The position numbers and the translations under genes are program-made. This document shows positions 419-24,108 of a stretch of DNA of 29,048 nucleotides, piece by piece; position 1 is the first letter of the stretch; each line of letters opens with the position of its first letter. This DNA is from a virus: IMG/VR virus record IMGVR_UViG_3300025082_000047, positions 1-29,048 of that record, one strand, 5' to 3'. A model generated the notes under the pieces. It had not been told where the DNA came from. It did not search any database and saw nothing but the letters and a program-made list of their open reading frames with translations.

Positions 419-727
419 ATGGATAACTTAAAAGACAAGAACAATGCATTATATACATTGTTAGCAAACGTTTATTTAGAAAACCAAGATAGGATTGAAA
501 ACCCACTTTGGCAAATAGTAGATGCCGAATTGCGAGAAACAAAGTACGTACACGACTTTGAAAGATATATACCTAAAGAATTTAAGTACGGTTGGAACGA
601 CTTAACAAACGAAACTAAAACCGCTTTGTTTATGGTAGCAAATGAAGCTGCCGAGAATGAAGATGCGAGAAACAAAGATGGGATTAAATGTTTGCTAACT
701 TTACGTGACTATATGCAGTCACTTTAA
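419..727 (+). CDS. Hypothetical protein at the left edge of the foreign region
   Basis: A 102-residue acidic protein with no recognised domain; the middle is rich in charged and aromatic residues (WQIVDAELRETKYVHDF, then FKYGWNDL). Its base composition, with many CpG dinucleotides, differs sharply from the phage genes on either side and matches the cassette genes that follow. No ribosome binding site is strong (TATAGGA, 4 bases before ATG). No attC-type box precedes it, although GATAAC occurs at 378-383, and the sequence between its stop and the first cassette lacks an AAC-type left arm. It may be a degraded first cassette, or foreign DNA acquired with the array. Function unknown. Confidence 0.6.
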   Translation: MDNLKDKNNALYTLLANVYLENQDRIENPLWQIVDAELRETKYVHDFERYIPKEFKYGWNDLTNETKTALFMVANEAAENEDARNKDGIKCLLTLRDYMQSL

Positions 728-737
728 ATCAAAATTT

Positions 738-761
738 ACAGAGATTGCATATAGTCTCTGT
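738..761 (+). other. Hairpin at the left junction of the cassette array
   Basis: ACAGAGA (738-744) is an exact inverted repeat of TCTCTGT (755-761), with a 10-base loop. The right arm ends at the G/TT cleavage point inferred for the first cassette (G760, TT761-762). It could be the right half of a remodelled recombination site or a weak terminator for the upstream gene. Confidence 0.5.
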
Positions 762-778
762 TATCGGCTGGAGGTCGT

Positions 779-1051
779 ATGAAAGAAAAAACACTAGATA
801 ATACCAATGTAGAAGAAGCAAAGAAAAAAGTTTCTGACATTCAAGTTTTCGGAAATGGGGATTTGTTTACGTTAATTTGTAAAGTTTCTTCAAAAGAGCA
901 AGGGTGGATGAAAAGCACAAAGGCTATGGAGACCCCAAAAGGTTGCGTGGTCCAAGTATCTACACAACAAGGTGACAATGTAGCTGAATCTATTTGCTTT
1001 GTTCCTGATGTGAAGATATTAGAAAACGAAAAAGGAAGATACTTAGGCTAA
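779..1051 (+). CDS. Cassette 1 protein, unknown function
   Basis: A 90-residue protein starting 5 bases after a good TGGAGG ribosome binding site, itself only a few bases inside the cassette boundary. It is probably a compact, single-domain soluble protein: 'DIQVFGNGDLFTLICKVSS' followed by 'GWMKSTKAMETPKGCVVQVSTQQ' looks like alternating beta strands, and there are no signal or membrane segments. I do not recognise a named family with confidence, though the pattern is reminiscent of small phage-borne hypothetical proteins. No promoter is seen inside the cassette, so expression would depend on upstream read-through. A stem-loop (1060-1087) and the attC follow its stop. Confidence 0.7.
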   Translation: MKEKTLDNTNVEEAKKKVSDIQVFGNGDLFTLICKVSSKEQGWMKSTKAMETPKGCVVQVSTQQGDNVAESICFVPDVKILENEKGRYLG

Positions 1052-1081
1052 CACTAAACATCGGTAAGGGGTAAAACTCTT

Positions 1082-1136
1082 GCCGATAACGCCTGAAGCT
1101 AAGCCCTGTTTTAATGGGGTTTAGGTTTTGTTATAG
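1082..1136 (+). repeat. attC-like site 1
   Basis: The left box GCCGATAAC (1082-1090) and right box GTTATAG (1130-1136) flank an inner imperfect palindrome, CTAAGCCC (1099-1106) against GGGGTTTAG (1116-1124). AACGCCTGAAG at the left has the position of an L'' box. The left box is an exact reverse complement of the start of its own cassette (760-768). Confidence 0.75.
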
Positions 1137-1179
1137 TGAGTTAAGAGAAGAAATACAAAATTAAACAACGGAGCATTAT

Positions 1180-1407
1180 ATGAAGGTTGAACTATTAAAA
1201 GACAATATAATTAAGAATATAGATACAGAAGATAATCTACTAGACTCTAGTAAATTAGAGTCAATATATGAAATCAGAAAATTAAAAGGTTTAGTAGAGT
1301 CACTAAATGAAGGGTTTATAGAAGTGGATAAAGTCAATAAACATGGTCAAGCATTTTCCTCTCAGTTTGAAATTTGGTTTAATAAAGATGAGTATAATTC
1401 ACTATAA
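1180..1407 (+). CDS. Cassette 2 protein, unknown function
   Basis: A 75-residue acidic protein, with GGAG about 6 bases before its ATG. It has an N-terminal half rich in Asp, Asn and Ile, a helix-like middle (SIYEIRKLKGLVESLNEGF) and a C-terminal strand-like segment ending FEIWFNKDEYNSL. No recognised domain. The stop codon TAA (1405-1407) lies inside the left box of the following attC-like site, a compact arrangement common in integron cassettes. Codon use is AT-rich with several CpGs elsewhere in the cassette and unlike the phage structural genes. Function unknown. Confidence 0.65.
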   Translation: MKVELLKDNIIKNIDTEDNLLDSSKLESIYEIRKLKGLVESLNEGFIEVDKVNKHGQAFSSQFEIWFNKDEYNSL

Positions 1408-1460
1408 CGCTTGAAGCCTTATTCTCGTTGCATAGCAATGGGATGAGGAAGTAGTTATAG
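1400..1460 (+). repeat. attC-like site 2
   Basis: CACTATAAC (1400-1408) pairs exactly with GTTATAGTG, found both at the start of its own cassette (1130-1138) and here at 1454-1462. The inner arms include CTCGTTGC against GCAATGGG. AACGCTTGAAG matches the L''-like block of sites 1 and 4. Confidence 0.8.
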
Positions 1461-1489
1461 TGAGTTAAGAAAGCTAAACAAGGATAACA

Positions 1490-1666
1490 ATGCAAAAATT
1501 TAATTATGTAAAATCTACAATATGCGGTGATTGGTTGAACAATGACGAAGTTGATACAGCCTGTGCTAGTAGGTTGCTTAGTATGTGTGAAGATTACGGC
1601 AATGATGGAAAGGAAGCAAAAGAGCTACTACAAATAGCTTTACGAAAATTGGAAATATACACATAA
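1490..1666 (+). CDS. Cassette 3 protein, 58 residues, unknown function
   Basis: A short ORF with ATG preceded by AAGGA at 5 bases' distance, ending TAA at 1664-1666. The product begins MQKFNYVKSTICGDWLNNDE and ends LLQIALRKLEIYT. It contains three cysteines and is probably a small helical protein; no family is recognised. It is the only reasonable ORF in the 279-base unit between attC-like sites 2 and 3, in the same orientation as the other cassette genes, with the stop 6 bases before the left attC box. These points support it as a real gene despite its size. Confidence 0.6.
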   Translation: MQKFNYVKSTICGDWLNNDEVDTACASRLLSMCEDYGNDGKEAKELLQIALRKLEIYT

Positions 1667-1671
1667 GTAAT

Positions 1672-1739
1672 TCACTATAACGGTTTGGCTATATGCTGAA
1701 CGTAATGAAATGGAGTATGGCATATAGCTAGTGTTATAT
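1672..1739 (+). repeat. attC-like site 3
   Basis: The left box TCACTATAAC (1672-1681) is the exact complement of its cassette start GTTATAGTGA (1454-1463). The right box is GTTATAT (1733-1739). The inner arms GCTATATGC (1688-1696) and GCATATAGC (1720-1728) are exact inverted repeats, giving the strongest stem of the set. Confidence 0.8.
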
Positions 1740-1770
1740 GCTTTTTATTAAATGATTAAAATAAATTAGA

Positions 1771-2028
1771 ATGGAATTTAAGAAACTTACAAAAGAAAAC
1801 TTACCAGAGCCAAATAAGTTAATTTGGATAAAGCGTAAAAAAGGAAGTATTTATTTAGGTTATCGAGAAGACAAACCGATTGCAACAAATAGAGATAGTA
1901 GTATAGATTGTTATTGGAGAGCTAACCCAAGTCATTCTATGTTGATGGCTGATTCAAGTGAGTTGCGTTTTAGACATAATTTTTCTGATGTAACTGTTGA
2001 ATCTTGGGCTGAATTAGATTTACCTTAA
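1771..2028 (+). CDS. Cassette 4 protein, unknown function
   Basis: An 85-residue basic protein. It begins with MEFKKLTKENLPEPNKLIWI and ends with DVTVESWAELDLP. The repeated Trp-Pro spacing and the 'P.P....W' opening recall short domains frequent in phage and integron hypothetical proteins (DUF551-like), but the match is too loose to name. No signal or membrane segment. There is no strong ribosome binding site (AAAATAAATTAGA before ATG). The stop is 2 bases from the left box of attC-like site 4. Codon use is foreign relative to the phage backbone. Confidence 0.65.
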   Translation: MEFKKLTKENLPEPNKLIWIKRKKGSIYLGYREDKPIATNRDSSIDCYWRANPSHSMLMADSSELRFRHNFSDVTVESWAELDLP

Positions 2029-2030
2029 TT

Positions 2031-2091
2031 GCATATAACGCTTGAGGGTTTACTTTTCGTTGCTTGCAATGGAGTAAATCCGTAGTTATCG
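2031..2091 (+). repeat. attC-like site 4
   Basis: The left box GCATATAAC (2031-2039) is an exact complement of the cassette start GTTATATGC (1733-1741). The right box is GTTATCG (2085-2091). The inner stem GGGTTTACT/AGTAAATCC continues into GTTGC/GCAAT near the tip, sharing the CGTTGC...GCAATGG core with site 2. Confidence 0.8.
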
Positions 2092-2128
2092 TCTGTGCGA
2101 TGAAACACCAAAACAAAAGGAATTAGTT

Positions 2129-2272
2129 ATGTCAGAAGTAACAAGAGTTAATGATGCAAGAACGAGCGATAAAGGTAAACTCACCGAGATAAAACAAGTG
2201 ATGGTTACTGAGTTTAAAATGCAAGAAATATTAAAGGGTGATGTGATATTACAACCAACAAGGGCGGTGTAG
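2129..2272 (+). CDS. Cassette 5 protein, 47 residues, unknown function
   Basis: ATG at 2129 and TAG at 2270-2272 encode 47 residues, beginning MSEVTRVNDARTSDKGKLTE and ending LKGDVILQPTRAV. It is the only substantial plus-strand ORF in the fifth unit. AAAGG lies about 8 bases before the ATG. No recognised domain. A longer ORF runs in antisense, but it spans the attC boundary at 2085 and has no matching start signals, so the plus-strand frame is preferred. Confidence 0.5.
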   Translation: MSEVTRVNDARTSDKGKLTEIKQVMVTEFKMQEILKGDVILQPTRAV

Positions 2273-2278
2273 AGCATT

Positions 2279-2325
2279 GATGATAACTACGATATATATT
2301 CACCTATCACTTAGATAGGTAGATA
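2279..2325 (+). repeat. Right-end attC-like site lacking a GTT box
   Basis: GATGATAAC (2279-2287) pairs with its cassette start GTTATCGTC (2085-2093) with one G-T wobble. A strong palindrome follows: ATATATTCACCTATC against GATAGGTAGATATAG. No GTT triplet follows where the right box should be, so the right half is truncated or was joined to phage DNA at a non-canonical site. Confidence 0.6.
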
Positions 2326-2345
2326 TAGCACACCAAATAAGGATA

Positions 2346-2445: not shown

Positions 2446-2964
2446 ATGCAATCAGAGGATAAGGAAAGACTGGAGAGGTTGGCATCAAAGCTGAGAGGTA
2501 AACAGAGAGCGTTTGCTGATAGTTATATGTCAAATGGAGAAAATGGCACTCAAGCGTGTAGGGATGCTGGATATAAAGGAAATCAAAAAACTTTAGGGGT
2601 CGTTGCTGTTGAGAACCTAGCAAAACCTAGCATAAGGGATTATATAGATGCTTTTAAGGAAATTGATGCTAAAAAATACCAGATCACTAGAGAGAGTTTA
2701 CTGGCTGATATTCAGATTGCCAAAGATTGTGCTTTAAATACATTCTATGAGACAAAAGCTGTGGGAGAGGATGAGAGAGTCCCCTTTGCACAATATCCAG
2801 CTTATTTAAAAGCGATTGAGATGCAAGCAAAAATGTTGGGACTCAATGAGCCAGAAAAGATTGATCTGACGACAAAAGGGGATAAGCTAGGGACAATTGA
2901 CATGGGCTCCCTGTCAGATGAGGCTTTAAAAGAGATTGCAAATGCTCCTCAGTCCCCAGACTAG
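2446..2964 (+). CDS. Terminase small subunit
   Basis: A 172-residue protein that would bind the packaging site and recruit the large subunit to start DNA packaging. Residues about 15-60 (GKQRAFADSYMSNGENGTQA, then CRDAGYKG and a following 'ENLAKPSIRDYI') are the signature of the Terminase_2 family: an HTH module in which T-Q-A-C/A-x-x-A-G-Y is followed by a second helix. The rest is helical oligomerisation and tail sequence. I chose ATG 2446 because GGAGG at 2431-2435 sits 10 bases away; an in-frame TTG at 2440 is too close. It overlaps the large terminase start by 23 bases, so the two are translationally coupled. It is the first gene after the 2370-2407 element. Confidence 0.88.
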   Translation: MQSEDKERLERLASKLRGKQRAFADSYMSNGENGTQACRDAGYKGNQKTLGVVAVENLAKPSIRDYIDAFKEIDAKKYQITRESLLADIQIAKDCALNTFYETKAVGEDERVPFAQYPAYLKAIEMQAKMLGLNEPEKIDLTTKGDKLGTIDMGSLSDEALKEIANAPQSPD

Positions 2965-4318
2965 GGCAAAGGTTGAGCTTTACAAGAGGCAAGATTTTAG
3001 CTCTTTAGGACTCAGCCCCAAACAGGAGGAGGCTCTCAGAGAGTTGCATCCCAAAAATACTGAGACAAGAGTTTTGACCTATGGAGGAGGAGCTGGAGGA
3101 GGTAAAAGCTGGTTTATCTGTGTTTGGGAGATCCTCAATGCTCTGGCCTATGCAAATACAAAACAATATATCTCAAGGAATGAACTCAAAAGGCTCATGT
3201 CCTCAACCTATGTGACATTTATGAAAGTGGCTCTGACTTTTGATCTGATCCAAGATCAACATTGGAAGTTAAACGGAAAATACAACTATATTGAGTTTTA
3301 TAATGGATCTAGGATTGATCTGGTAGATGTTTCTTTTCAGCCCAGAGATCCCATGTTTGAGAGATTTGGATCTATTGAGTACACCTGTGGAGCAAATGAG
3401 GAGGCTGGGGAGATTGATTTTGGGGCCTTTGATATTCTATTCACTAGGACAGGGAGACATCTCAACAGAGAGTTGGGGTTTTATCCAAAAAACCTAAACA
3501 CAGCAAACCCCAAAAAAAACTGGCTATATCAGTATTTTTACAAGCCATTTATGAGTGATACTCTTGAAAAGGGATATTATTTCATACAGGCTTTGATCCA
3601 TGACAACAAATTTATTGATCCAGAATATATCAAGAGTTTGGAAAATACAAAAGATGAGGTCAAAAAACAGAGATTACTCTATGGGAATTGGGAGTATGAT
3701 GATGATGATGCAATTCTGATCCCATACCAGAATATCATCAAAGCCTTTGAAAACACATCTGTCCAGCCAACTGGGAGGAGGTATATATCCTGTGATATTG
3801 CTATGGAGGGGGCTGACAAGATGGTGGCTGTGGTGTTTGATGGCTTAGTCCTAGAAAAGGTCTATACATGGGCCAAAACAAATGGCAAGGAAGTCATCCA
3901 GAAAATACAGGAGGTAGCTCTCAAATGGAATGTCCCTCAGTCAAATATTGTTTATGATGCCTCTGGTGTGGGTAATTATCTAGGGGGGTTTTTGGGAGGG
4001 GCTGTCTCATTCAGTGGGTCCTCATCTCCCAAAAATGGGCCAAATTATCAAAATTTAAGGGCTCAAGCCTTTTTTAGATTATCAGAAATGATCAATCAAG
4101 GGGAGATATACCTCAAAGATCAAGAGTTTAAAACTGAGATCTGTGAGGAGCTGGGAGTGATCAAATCAATGCTGGACACTCCAAAGTCCTCAATAATCTC
4201 AAAGGCTGAAATGAAAAAAACTCTGGGACACTCTCCAGATTATGCTGATGCTTTAAGTATGTTTATGGTGTATCATTTGTCTGAGGTTGCAAATAGCTTC
4301 CATTCAGATTGGTTTTAA
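2942..4318 (+). CDS. Terminase large subunit
   Basis: A 458-residue packaging motor with an N-terminal ATPase and a C-terminal nuclease. Walker A is GGGAGGGKS (residues 48-56). The acidic Walker B/catalytic region is probably IEYTCGANEEAGEI near 145-158. The RNase H-like nuclease has Asp285 (YISCDIAMEG), Asp339 (IVYDASGVG) and a late Asp in 'PDYADALSMF'. Length and order are normal for large terminases. ATG 2942 is chosen over an upstream TTG two codons earlier. The gene holds a single CpG between 3001 and its end, the most extreme example of the backbone's CpG poverty. The portal gene follows after 11 bases. Confidence 0.95.
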   Translation: MLLSPQTRAKVELYKRQDFSSLGLSPKQEEALRELHPKNTETRVLTYGGGAGGGKSWFICVWEILNALAYANTKQYISRNELKRLMSSTYVTFMKVALTFDLIQDQHWKLNGKYNYIEFYNGSRIDLVDVSFQPRDPMFERFGSIEYTCGANEEAGEIDFGAFDILFTRTGRHLNRELGFYPKNLNTANPKKNWLYQYFYKPFMSDTLEKGYYFIQALIHDNKFIDPEYIKSLENTKDEVKKQRLLYGNWEYDDDDAILIPYQNIIKAFENTSVQPTGRRYISCDIAMEGADKMVAVVFDGLVLEKVYTWAKTNGKEVIQKIQEVALKWNVPQSNIVYDASGVGNYLGGFLGGAVSFSGSSSPKNGPNYQNLRAQAFFRLSEMINQGEIYLKDQEFKTEICEELGVIKSMLDTPKSSIISKAEMKKTLGHSPDYADALSMFMVYHLSEVANSFHSDWF

Positions 4319-22815: not shown

Positions 22816-23438
22816 TGGATTTTGTAATGAGTTTGCTGGAGAATTATGCTTTTGATACTGGGAGCGTGGGCCTTTTTCTTTTCTTTTTAAAGTTTTTCCA
22901 TGATAAGCAATTGAAAAAAGCTCAAGACTTTCAAGAGGATTTAATCAAGTTTATCAGAGAGGGCTCTCAAGACATAAAGCATGAGCAAGCTGTCAAAAAG
23001 ATAAATAAGGCCATAAAGAACGCAACAAAATTAATAGGACTTGAGATCAGATTTATTGAGCAAAATCAATCTCTGAGACAAAATCATGTTAATTTGGCTC
23101 ACAGCTTTAGATCAGTGTGGCAAAGGGAGTGGACTGAGATCATGGACACTCTTTATGGGGTGACATACAAAGGGAGGCCTCTCCAGAGTTACATCAATTC
23201 TATGAGCTCAGAGTGGGGAATCCAGAGGGAGCTCATTTTAGAGGATCTCAAAAAAACAATGTCAAACCAGCCCACACGGATCCAACAGCTGGAGAGCTAT
23301 TTGAGTTCATTCAGACATGAGCTGGAGCTGGGAGCTTTGCAATGGCTTGACACAGGTGTCAGCTATAAAGAGGCCCCAGTTGATAGGATTGAGGAGCAAG
23401 ATGTTTTAATCAAAGAGGATGCTGATCAACTTGGATAA
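22815..23438 (+). CDS. Predicted membrane-anchored coiled-coil protein
   Basis: A 207-residue protein with one hydrophobic stretch near the N-terminus (GSVGLFLFFLKFF, about 17-30) followed by a long charged helical body. It may be a single-pass or monotopic protein with a cytoplasmic coiled coil. Located between the tail fibre and a lipase, it could act in lysis as a holin-like or anchoring component, but it is longer than typical holins and has only one segment. ATG 22815 overlaps the upstream stop (TGATG); a longer TTG-started reading from 22764 is not supported by a ribosome site. Its end overlaps the lipase start by 20 bases. Confidence 0.55.
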   Translation: MDFVMSLLENYAFDTGSVGLFLFFLKFFHDKQLKKAQDFQEDLIKFIREGSQDIKHEQAVKKINKAIKNATKLIGLEIRFIEQNQSLRQNHVNLAHSFRSVWQREWTEIMDTLYGVTYKGRPLQSYINSMSSEWGIQRELILEDLKKTMSNQPTRIQQLESYLSSFRHELELGALQWLDTGVSYKEAPVDRIEEQDVLIKEDADQLG

Positions 23439-24108
23439 AACACAAATAATCAGAGGGGCTGTGGATTACAGCCTTTTTTCTTATGGTGACACTTTGCTCA
23501 GAGACACTATAAAATCAGACTCATCCAGCTCTGATCAATGGTGCTATGAGTTTGTCAATGTGGGTGGGGAGAAAATCCTCTATTTTGGAATTGCTGGGAC
23601 AAATGACATCAGTGATTTGATAAGGGATATAAATCTGATCCCAGTATATTGTGGGTTTGGGTTTTGTCACTTTGGATTTTTAAAAGGTGCAAAAAATATA
23701 TTGAGATTTATTGATCATGTTATTTTAAACGCTGTCCAGAATAAATATAAAATTGTCTTCACTGGTCACTCTTATGGGGGAGCAGTTGCTCAGATTGTCA
23801 CAGAAAAAATGTTAAGAAAATACCCAGAGGGGGAGTTTTTATGTGTGAGTTTTGGATCCCCTAGAGTCTGGACACGGATCTCAAAAATAAAAAGCTCACA
23901 TATTAGAGTTTTTAATGATGACGATCCAGTGACAAAGATCCCTCTGGTTTTTGGATTATACACTCACAAAGAGGAGCACAATGTTGAGCTGGAGACAAAA
24001 GGCTGGATTGATTTTAAAGATCACTCAATTTATAATTACAAAAAAATCATCAAAGGTGAAAAGAATGAAACAAGCAAGAATTACAAGGATAGCATCAAAC
24101 CCATCTGA
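23419..24108 (+). CDS. Class 3 lipase (alpha/beta hydrolase)
   Basis: A 229-residue esterase/lipase with all motifs of the class 3 lipase family. These are an oxyanion-loop strand 'YFGIAGTNDISDLIRD' (55-70), 'CHFGF' (83-87), the nucleophile elbow TGHSYGGA with Ser118, 'FGSPRV' (145-150), the acid in 'VFNDDDPVTKIP' (Asp169 likely) and the His in 'DHSIYNY' (His202). No signal peptide, so it would act in the cytoplasm or be released by lysis or carried in the virion. Likely substrates are membrane glycerolipids. It sits where lysis genes normally are, between a membrane-segment protein and a DUF5675-like protein, overlapping both. Lipases are uncommon in phages of this type. Confidence 0.82.
   Translation: MLINLDKTQIIRGAVDYSLFSYGDTLLRDTIKSDSSSSDQWCYEFVNVGGEKILYFGIAGTNDISDLIRDINLIPVYCGFGFCHFGFLKGAKNILRFIDHVILNAVQNKYKIVFTGHSYGGAVAQIVTEKMLRKYPEGEFLCVSFGSPRVWTRISKIKSSHIRVFNDDDPVTKIPLVFGLYTHKEEHNVELETKGWIDFKDHSIYNYKKIIKGEKNETSKNYKDSIKPI

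Follow-up and report, generated by a model that had tools for sequence, protein, structure and literature searches.

A phage locus next to the terminase genes that reads as six integron-type cassettes, each apparently headed by its attC site

In this study we ask what a row of small genes beside the terminase genes of a viral genome represents, where its units begin and end, and which way round they are built. The window, by which we mean the whole stretch of DNA analysed (29,048 nucleotides, IMG/VR record IMGVR_UViG_3300025082_000047), had been read in a first-pass annotation as carrying five single-ORF integron cassettes, each starting with bases complementary to its own terminal box. All five units were found again, and their reading as integron-type cassettes within a phage and next to terminase genes is borne out by box closure, by three copies of TCARGCGTTA and by covariance-model matches. 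A sixth unit had been missed at 384-699, where 460-469 pairs with 690-699 in 10/10 positions, and positions 384-2287 are thus a row of six cassettes adjoining the terminase genes. We put at roughly 0.8 the probability that the locus is a phage-borne, six-cassette array of integron type without an integrase, with attC first in each unit, moved by a recombinase acting in trans and carrying counter-defence cargo. Computation established what is reported below about the boxes and stems, about the polarity and edges of the units, and about their exchange between phages.

On the left the array adjoins ATGATAAC (376-383), which lies at the stop codon of a phage ORF (176-379); the same 8 bases, ATGATAAC, close the array on the right at 2280-2287, and the copy at 376-383 is likely to be the original insertion core. 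The small (2440-2964) and large (2936-4318) terminase genes, on the plus strand, are identified by PF03592 (E 1.5e-10), PF04466 (E 4.9e-9) and PHROGs terminase matches, and the cassette genes run head to tail in the same direction. Unit 0 (384-699) has its R box at 460-469 (GTTAGCAAAC) and its terminal box at 690-699 (GTTTGCTAAC). Its 102-aa ORF (419-727, plus strand) extends beyond the unit end into the following attC and contains the R box in a different frame, with no clear hairpin upstream. In the other units, all on the plus strand, an attC on the minus strand is followed by a gene: unit 1 (700-1090) consists of attC 700-768, a 90-aa gene (779-1051) for a homologue of Lockin and the terminal box GCCGATAAC (1082-1090); unit 2 (1091-1408) of attC 1091-1139, ORF 1180-1407 (75 aa) and terminal box 1399-1408; unit 3 (1409-1681) of attC 1409-1463, ORF 1490-1666 (58 aa) and terminal box 1672-1681; unit 4 (1682-2039) of attC 1682-1741, ORF 1771-2028 (85 aa) and terminal box 2031-2039; and unit 5 (2040-2287) of attC 2040-2093, ORF 2129-2272 (47 aa) and terminal box 2279-2287, which is the right end of the array. 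Elsewhere in the window, the phage late region holds an ORF with a lipase-like GHSYGGA motif (23419-24108).

The start boxes (at 460, 760, 1130, 1454, 1733 and 2085) are reverse complements of the ends of their own units over 9-10 bases, the last one in 8/9. The boxes are GTTATCGGC at 760 (pairing with 1082-1090), GTTATAGTGA at both 1130 (with 1399-1408) and 1454 (with 1672-1681), 10/10 in both cases, GTTATATGC at 1733 (with 2031-2039) and GTTATCGTC at 2085 (with 2279-2287, 8/9 plus one G-T pair). When the shared GTTA core is left out and the five units that have a neighbour are considered, 28/35 letters pair within units versus 14/35 between adjacent units. Among all 720 permutations the own-unit assignment is the best, with one tie (P = 2/720); the tie swaps units 2 and 3, because both carry the same box. 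This supports the proposal that the covariation comes from circular units which rebuild a full attC. Closures of at least 9 bp number 13 in the window against about 3 expected, six of them within 460-2039, and own closure was seen at 29 of 44 pattern sites, compared with 5.2% for boxes tried on other contigs. Taken by itself, own closure fits a hairpin that belongs to the preceding gene and one that belongs to the following gene equally well.

The rebuilt circular sites fold into an outer R stem of 9-10 bp and an inner L stem, and the complementary R''/R' and L''/L' boxes that characterise integron cassettes and CALINs are present at the sites of the window. The consensus TCARGCG^TTA occurs 3 times in the window where 0.02 would be expected, always on the minus strand and exactly at three junctions; on that strand TCAGGCGTTA stands at 1087-1096 and TCAAGCGTTA at 1405-1414 and again at 2036-2045. 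In classical plasmid cassettes the attC ends in CTCAAGCG^TTAG or CTCAGGCG^TTA in gene sense. The check proposed in the first-pass annotation, a search with attC covariance models, was run with a model (R3) built on 21 attC sites from other phages, the window sequence being left out. Its two matches above noise, 1674-1741 with E 3e-10 and 1086-1134 with E 0.004, lie on the minus strand, and it gave zero matches in 607 kb of control phage contigs. On the same strand 1400-1462 and 706-755 reached noise level only (E 7.7 and 9), the latter in unit 1, where closure is present and the L stem is long, and no score was obtained at the junction 2031-2093. A narrow aadA-type attC model did not single out the window sites, an Rfam search returned chance matches only, and a DNA pattern derived from the window sites attC2/attC4 had no match in viral contigs and three chance matches in coding sequence of genomes. 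Closure was the criterion by which the R stem was picked, so its perfect pairing adds no independent support; the L stem, which played no part in site selection, covaries as well in the family alignment, which takes in the window site.

Which gene does each attC belong to? It had been assumed that the gene comes first and the attC last, with unit limits at the GTT boxes. Both assumptions are overturned by the strand of the motif and of the model matches, by homology edges and by unit counts, and sequence comparisons place the cuts at the AAC boxes, at about 383, 699, 1090, 1408, 1681, 2039 and 2287. The model R3 matches are antisense to the genes in P12002L and other arrays as well. Unit 4 has homologues in two other viral contigs (a unit in L015, 94% identical in amino acids, and a gene in L016, 86%); along the DNA shared with L015, identity is 36% before the AAC, 88% in the attC upstream of the gene, 93% from the R box to the terminal AAC and 42% after it. 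A unit encoding 83 aa is identical in DNA across five contigs and four neighbourhoods, and the identity ends at AAC on both sides. Between the cultured Polaribacter phages P12002L (31310-32281) and P12002S (29806-30777) a block of 972 identical bp holds a methyltransferase unit, has its edges at AAC and lies between different neighbours on both sides. Units are thus met in different contexts with their edges at the core site. Because homology stops at AAC in all three comparisons, the mobile unit, as judged from sequence comparison, is the attC together with the following gene, from AAC to AAC, with the gene antisense to the attC. Read in attC polarity it is an ordinary cassette with its gene running backwards: each unit has one small gene, but not in attC sense, a trait that is typical of cassettes and not strictly defining.

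In array contigs we counted 105 attC-first units versus 5 attC-last, a count biased by pattern-selected sites, as both collection patterns contain AACG, though other units in the same contigs agree; for one attC type 33 of 34 resolvable units were attC-first. Orientation controls (plasmids and a Dechloromonas integron) gave 0 versus 4. P12002L (L017, at 29237-32281) and P12002S (L123) have shuffled methyltransferase cassettes, and an additional attC-model match lies at 38030-38095 of P12002L, beside methylase genes and antisense to them.

One cassette family, found by pattern, has the start codon and the first 31 codons inside the attC (L100-L119, for example L112:3274-3534 and, on the minus strand, L113:4691-4942). 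Its R box lies 93 bases downstream of the start codon, in frame, as codon 32. At this box a constant 31-residue N-terminus passes in frame into at least six different gene bodies, most of which have an end that covaries with the box. One coding attC with many bodies may be a trace of cassette assembly. For recent transfer, the idea that a gene is fused in frame to the leader of the previous unit was given up, since identical units bring their own leader.

The array contigs that were checked contain phage terminase, polymerase, helicase or reductase genes. The terminases nearest to those of the window come from phages of Bacteroides, Flavobacterium and Polaribacter (35-41% identity), and the Bacteroidota promoter motif is abundant in L016 but not in excess in the window itself; from these terminase relatives and the promoters of L016 a Bacteroidota host appears likely for the window phage. 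In L016, a 162-kb phage contig, a cassette array lies between the ClpP and deoxynucleotide kinase genes. An integron integrase was found neither in the window nor in 15 and 21 array-bearing or related records, where only distant tyrosine recombinases far below the cut-off appeared. With at least two attC sites and no integrase nearby the array is therefore a CALIN, and a recombinase supplied in trans would be the simplest reading. The contig of L110, which carries a cassette array, encodes a generic tyrosine recombinase of 277 aa (L127:1444-2277), far below the integron-integrase cut-off.

Other explanations have to be weighed against this one. If the units were classical cassettes, each a gene with its own attC behind it and with G^TT on the gene strand as the cut site, own closure would look the same, as it fits both models; the homology edges, the strands of the attC consensus and of the model matches, the ratio of 105:5 and the absence of any R' box after unit 5 in the window make this very improbable. 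We consider it just as improbable that the contig is a chimera with an array from a host chromosome: a metagenome contig is a source in which this might happen, but both array ends are clean on AAC, and numerous phage contigs as well as two cultured Polaribacter phages have similar arrays. The least probable view, which we regard as close to untenable, is that of an immobile set of ordinary phage genes separated by conserved RNA hairpins or terminators. In 12 of 14 phage sites the sense strand is the one that folds more stably (classical sites are mixed), as would be expected of RNA, yet the closure of 9-10 bp spans the whole gene, identical units with AAC edges are found in different neighbourhoods, and the exchange between P12002L and P12002S contradicts it.

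Somewhat more room, while still unlikely, is left for another single-strand system, an IS200/IS605-like HUH transposase or some other recombinase, which would move units that are integron-like in appearance only. Such a system would agree with the missing integrase in the records searched and with the gene strand being the more stable folding strand, and IS200/IS605 elements likewise use single-strand hairpins. However, no Y1 transposase was detected in the window or in 15 array records, and the units differ from IS200/IS605 in having an attC consensus with R and L boxes and in lining up different genes head to tail, each unit with a single hairpin; moreover, attC2 of P12002L was recombined under IntI1, according to Qi et al. 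2023 (PMC9892861).

What do the cassettes carry? The unit 1 protein matches Lockin (PDB 9p8l, a complex with 3'cADPR) over its full length (phmmer E 7.7e-22, residues 1-90), and its structure model (pLDDT 91) superposes on Lockin with a TM of 0.89, so that sequence and fold both place it with Lockin; it differs in being cargo of a recombination cassette. It is predicted to be a Thoeris counter-defence protein that probably acts as a 3'cADPR sponge. Relatives occur in 79 viral contigs and lack closure boxes in 36 of 37 examined (one exception), and DNA similarity to them spans the gene and not the hairpin, which fits a phage gene that was captured as a cassette. Family and similarity searches gave no functional match for units 0, 2, 3, 4 and 5 (only weak family matches for unit 0); no relatives of the unit 4 protein were found in genomes nor of units 0 and 2 in viral contigs, and no match to the cassette proteins came from tblastn against phage and plasmid records. 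Cassettes elsewhere encode N6/N4, C5 and MT-A70 DNA methyltransferases, Mom, an HD protein and RtcB. Together with the Lockin homologue these genes make counter-defence a likely theme of the cargo, at least in part. Genes of the Mom family of DNA modification, as cassettes or within array contigs, are seen at L132:9381-10061, L157:2982-3671 and L113:2529-3242, and the RtcB RNA ligase cassette (L140:949-2298) possibly mends RNA cut by host defence.

Cassettes in phages are already known, and the statement that they are rarely documented had to be given up: Qi et al. 2023 (PMC9892861) report integrons, CALINs or parts of them in 21 phages, including TJE1, PH101 and P12002L, with recombination of 5/6 phage attC sites with attI1, that of P12002L attC2 under IntI1 occurring on the bottom strand only. 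These CALINs share with our locus attC sites without integrase in virulent phages, and the P12002L sites, with their methyltransferase cassettes, fit the same attC model. The sections of that paper covered here note 'divergent directions' of the P12002L attC without further analysis and have no mention of antisense genes, coding attC or exchange with P12002S; our literature search, which was incomplete, turned up neither antisense arrays nor coding attC sites. Sedentary chromosomal and class 1 integron cassettes resemble the window units in their single small genes, R and L boxes, G^TT cut and own closure. In those cassettes the attC follows the gene (as checked on plasmid arrays), whereas here it precedes the gene and in some families includes the start codon.

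Under the integron-type reading each mobile unit would be an attC with one small gene behind it, and the cut would fall at the AAC end, which is G^TT on the minus strand. The layout reverses that of the usual cassette, the gene being antisense to its attC, so that the gene-sense strand would be the one that folds and recombines. The recombinase in trans would most likely be an integron integrase from a Bacteroidota host; it would excise and insert the units, and phages exchange them among themselves. The cassette genes are probably read from phage transcripts, and the unit 1 protein probably soaks up the Thoeris signal 3'cADPR. As a further reading, which we hold to be somewhat less likely than not, Bacteroidota phages may share a cassette pool of their own, attC-first and reversed relative to that of bacteria. 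In this pool translation would start within the attC, which in some cases also supplies the first 31 codons, and counter-defence genes would be traded by means of an integrase in trans. If so, the exact joining of a single coding attC, at its R box, to at least six gene bodies would document how new cassettes arise.

Our findings suggest that phages use integron recombination as one way to trade counter-defence genes unit by unit, and that a cassette can have its recombination site ahead of the gene. They also make two questions testable: how cassettes are born, given one coding attC with many gene bodies, and which integrase acts for phages of Bacteroidetes, the likely host phylum, in which IntegronFinder 2.0 (PMC9024848) found few integrons.
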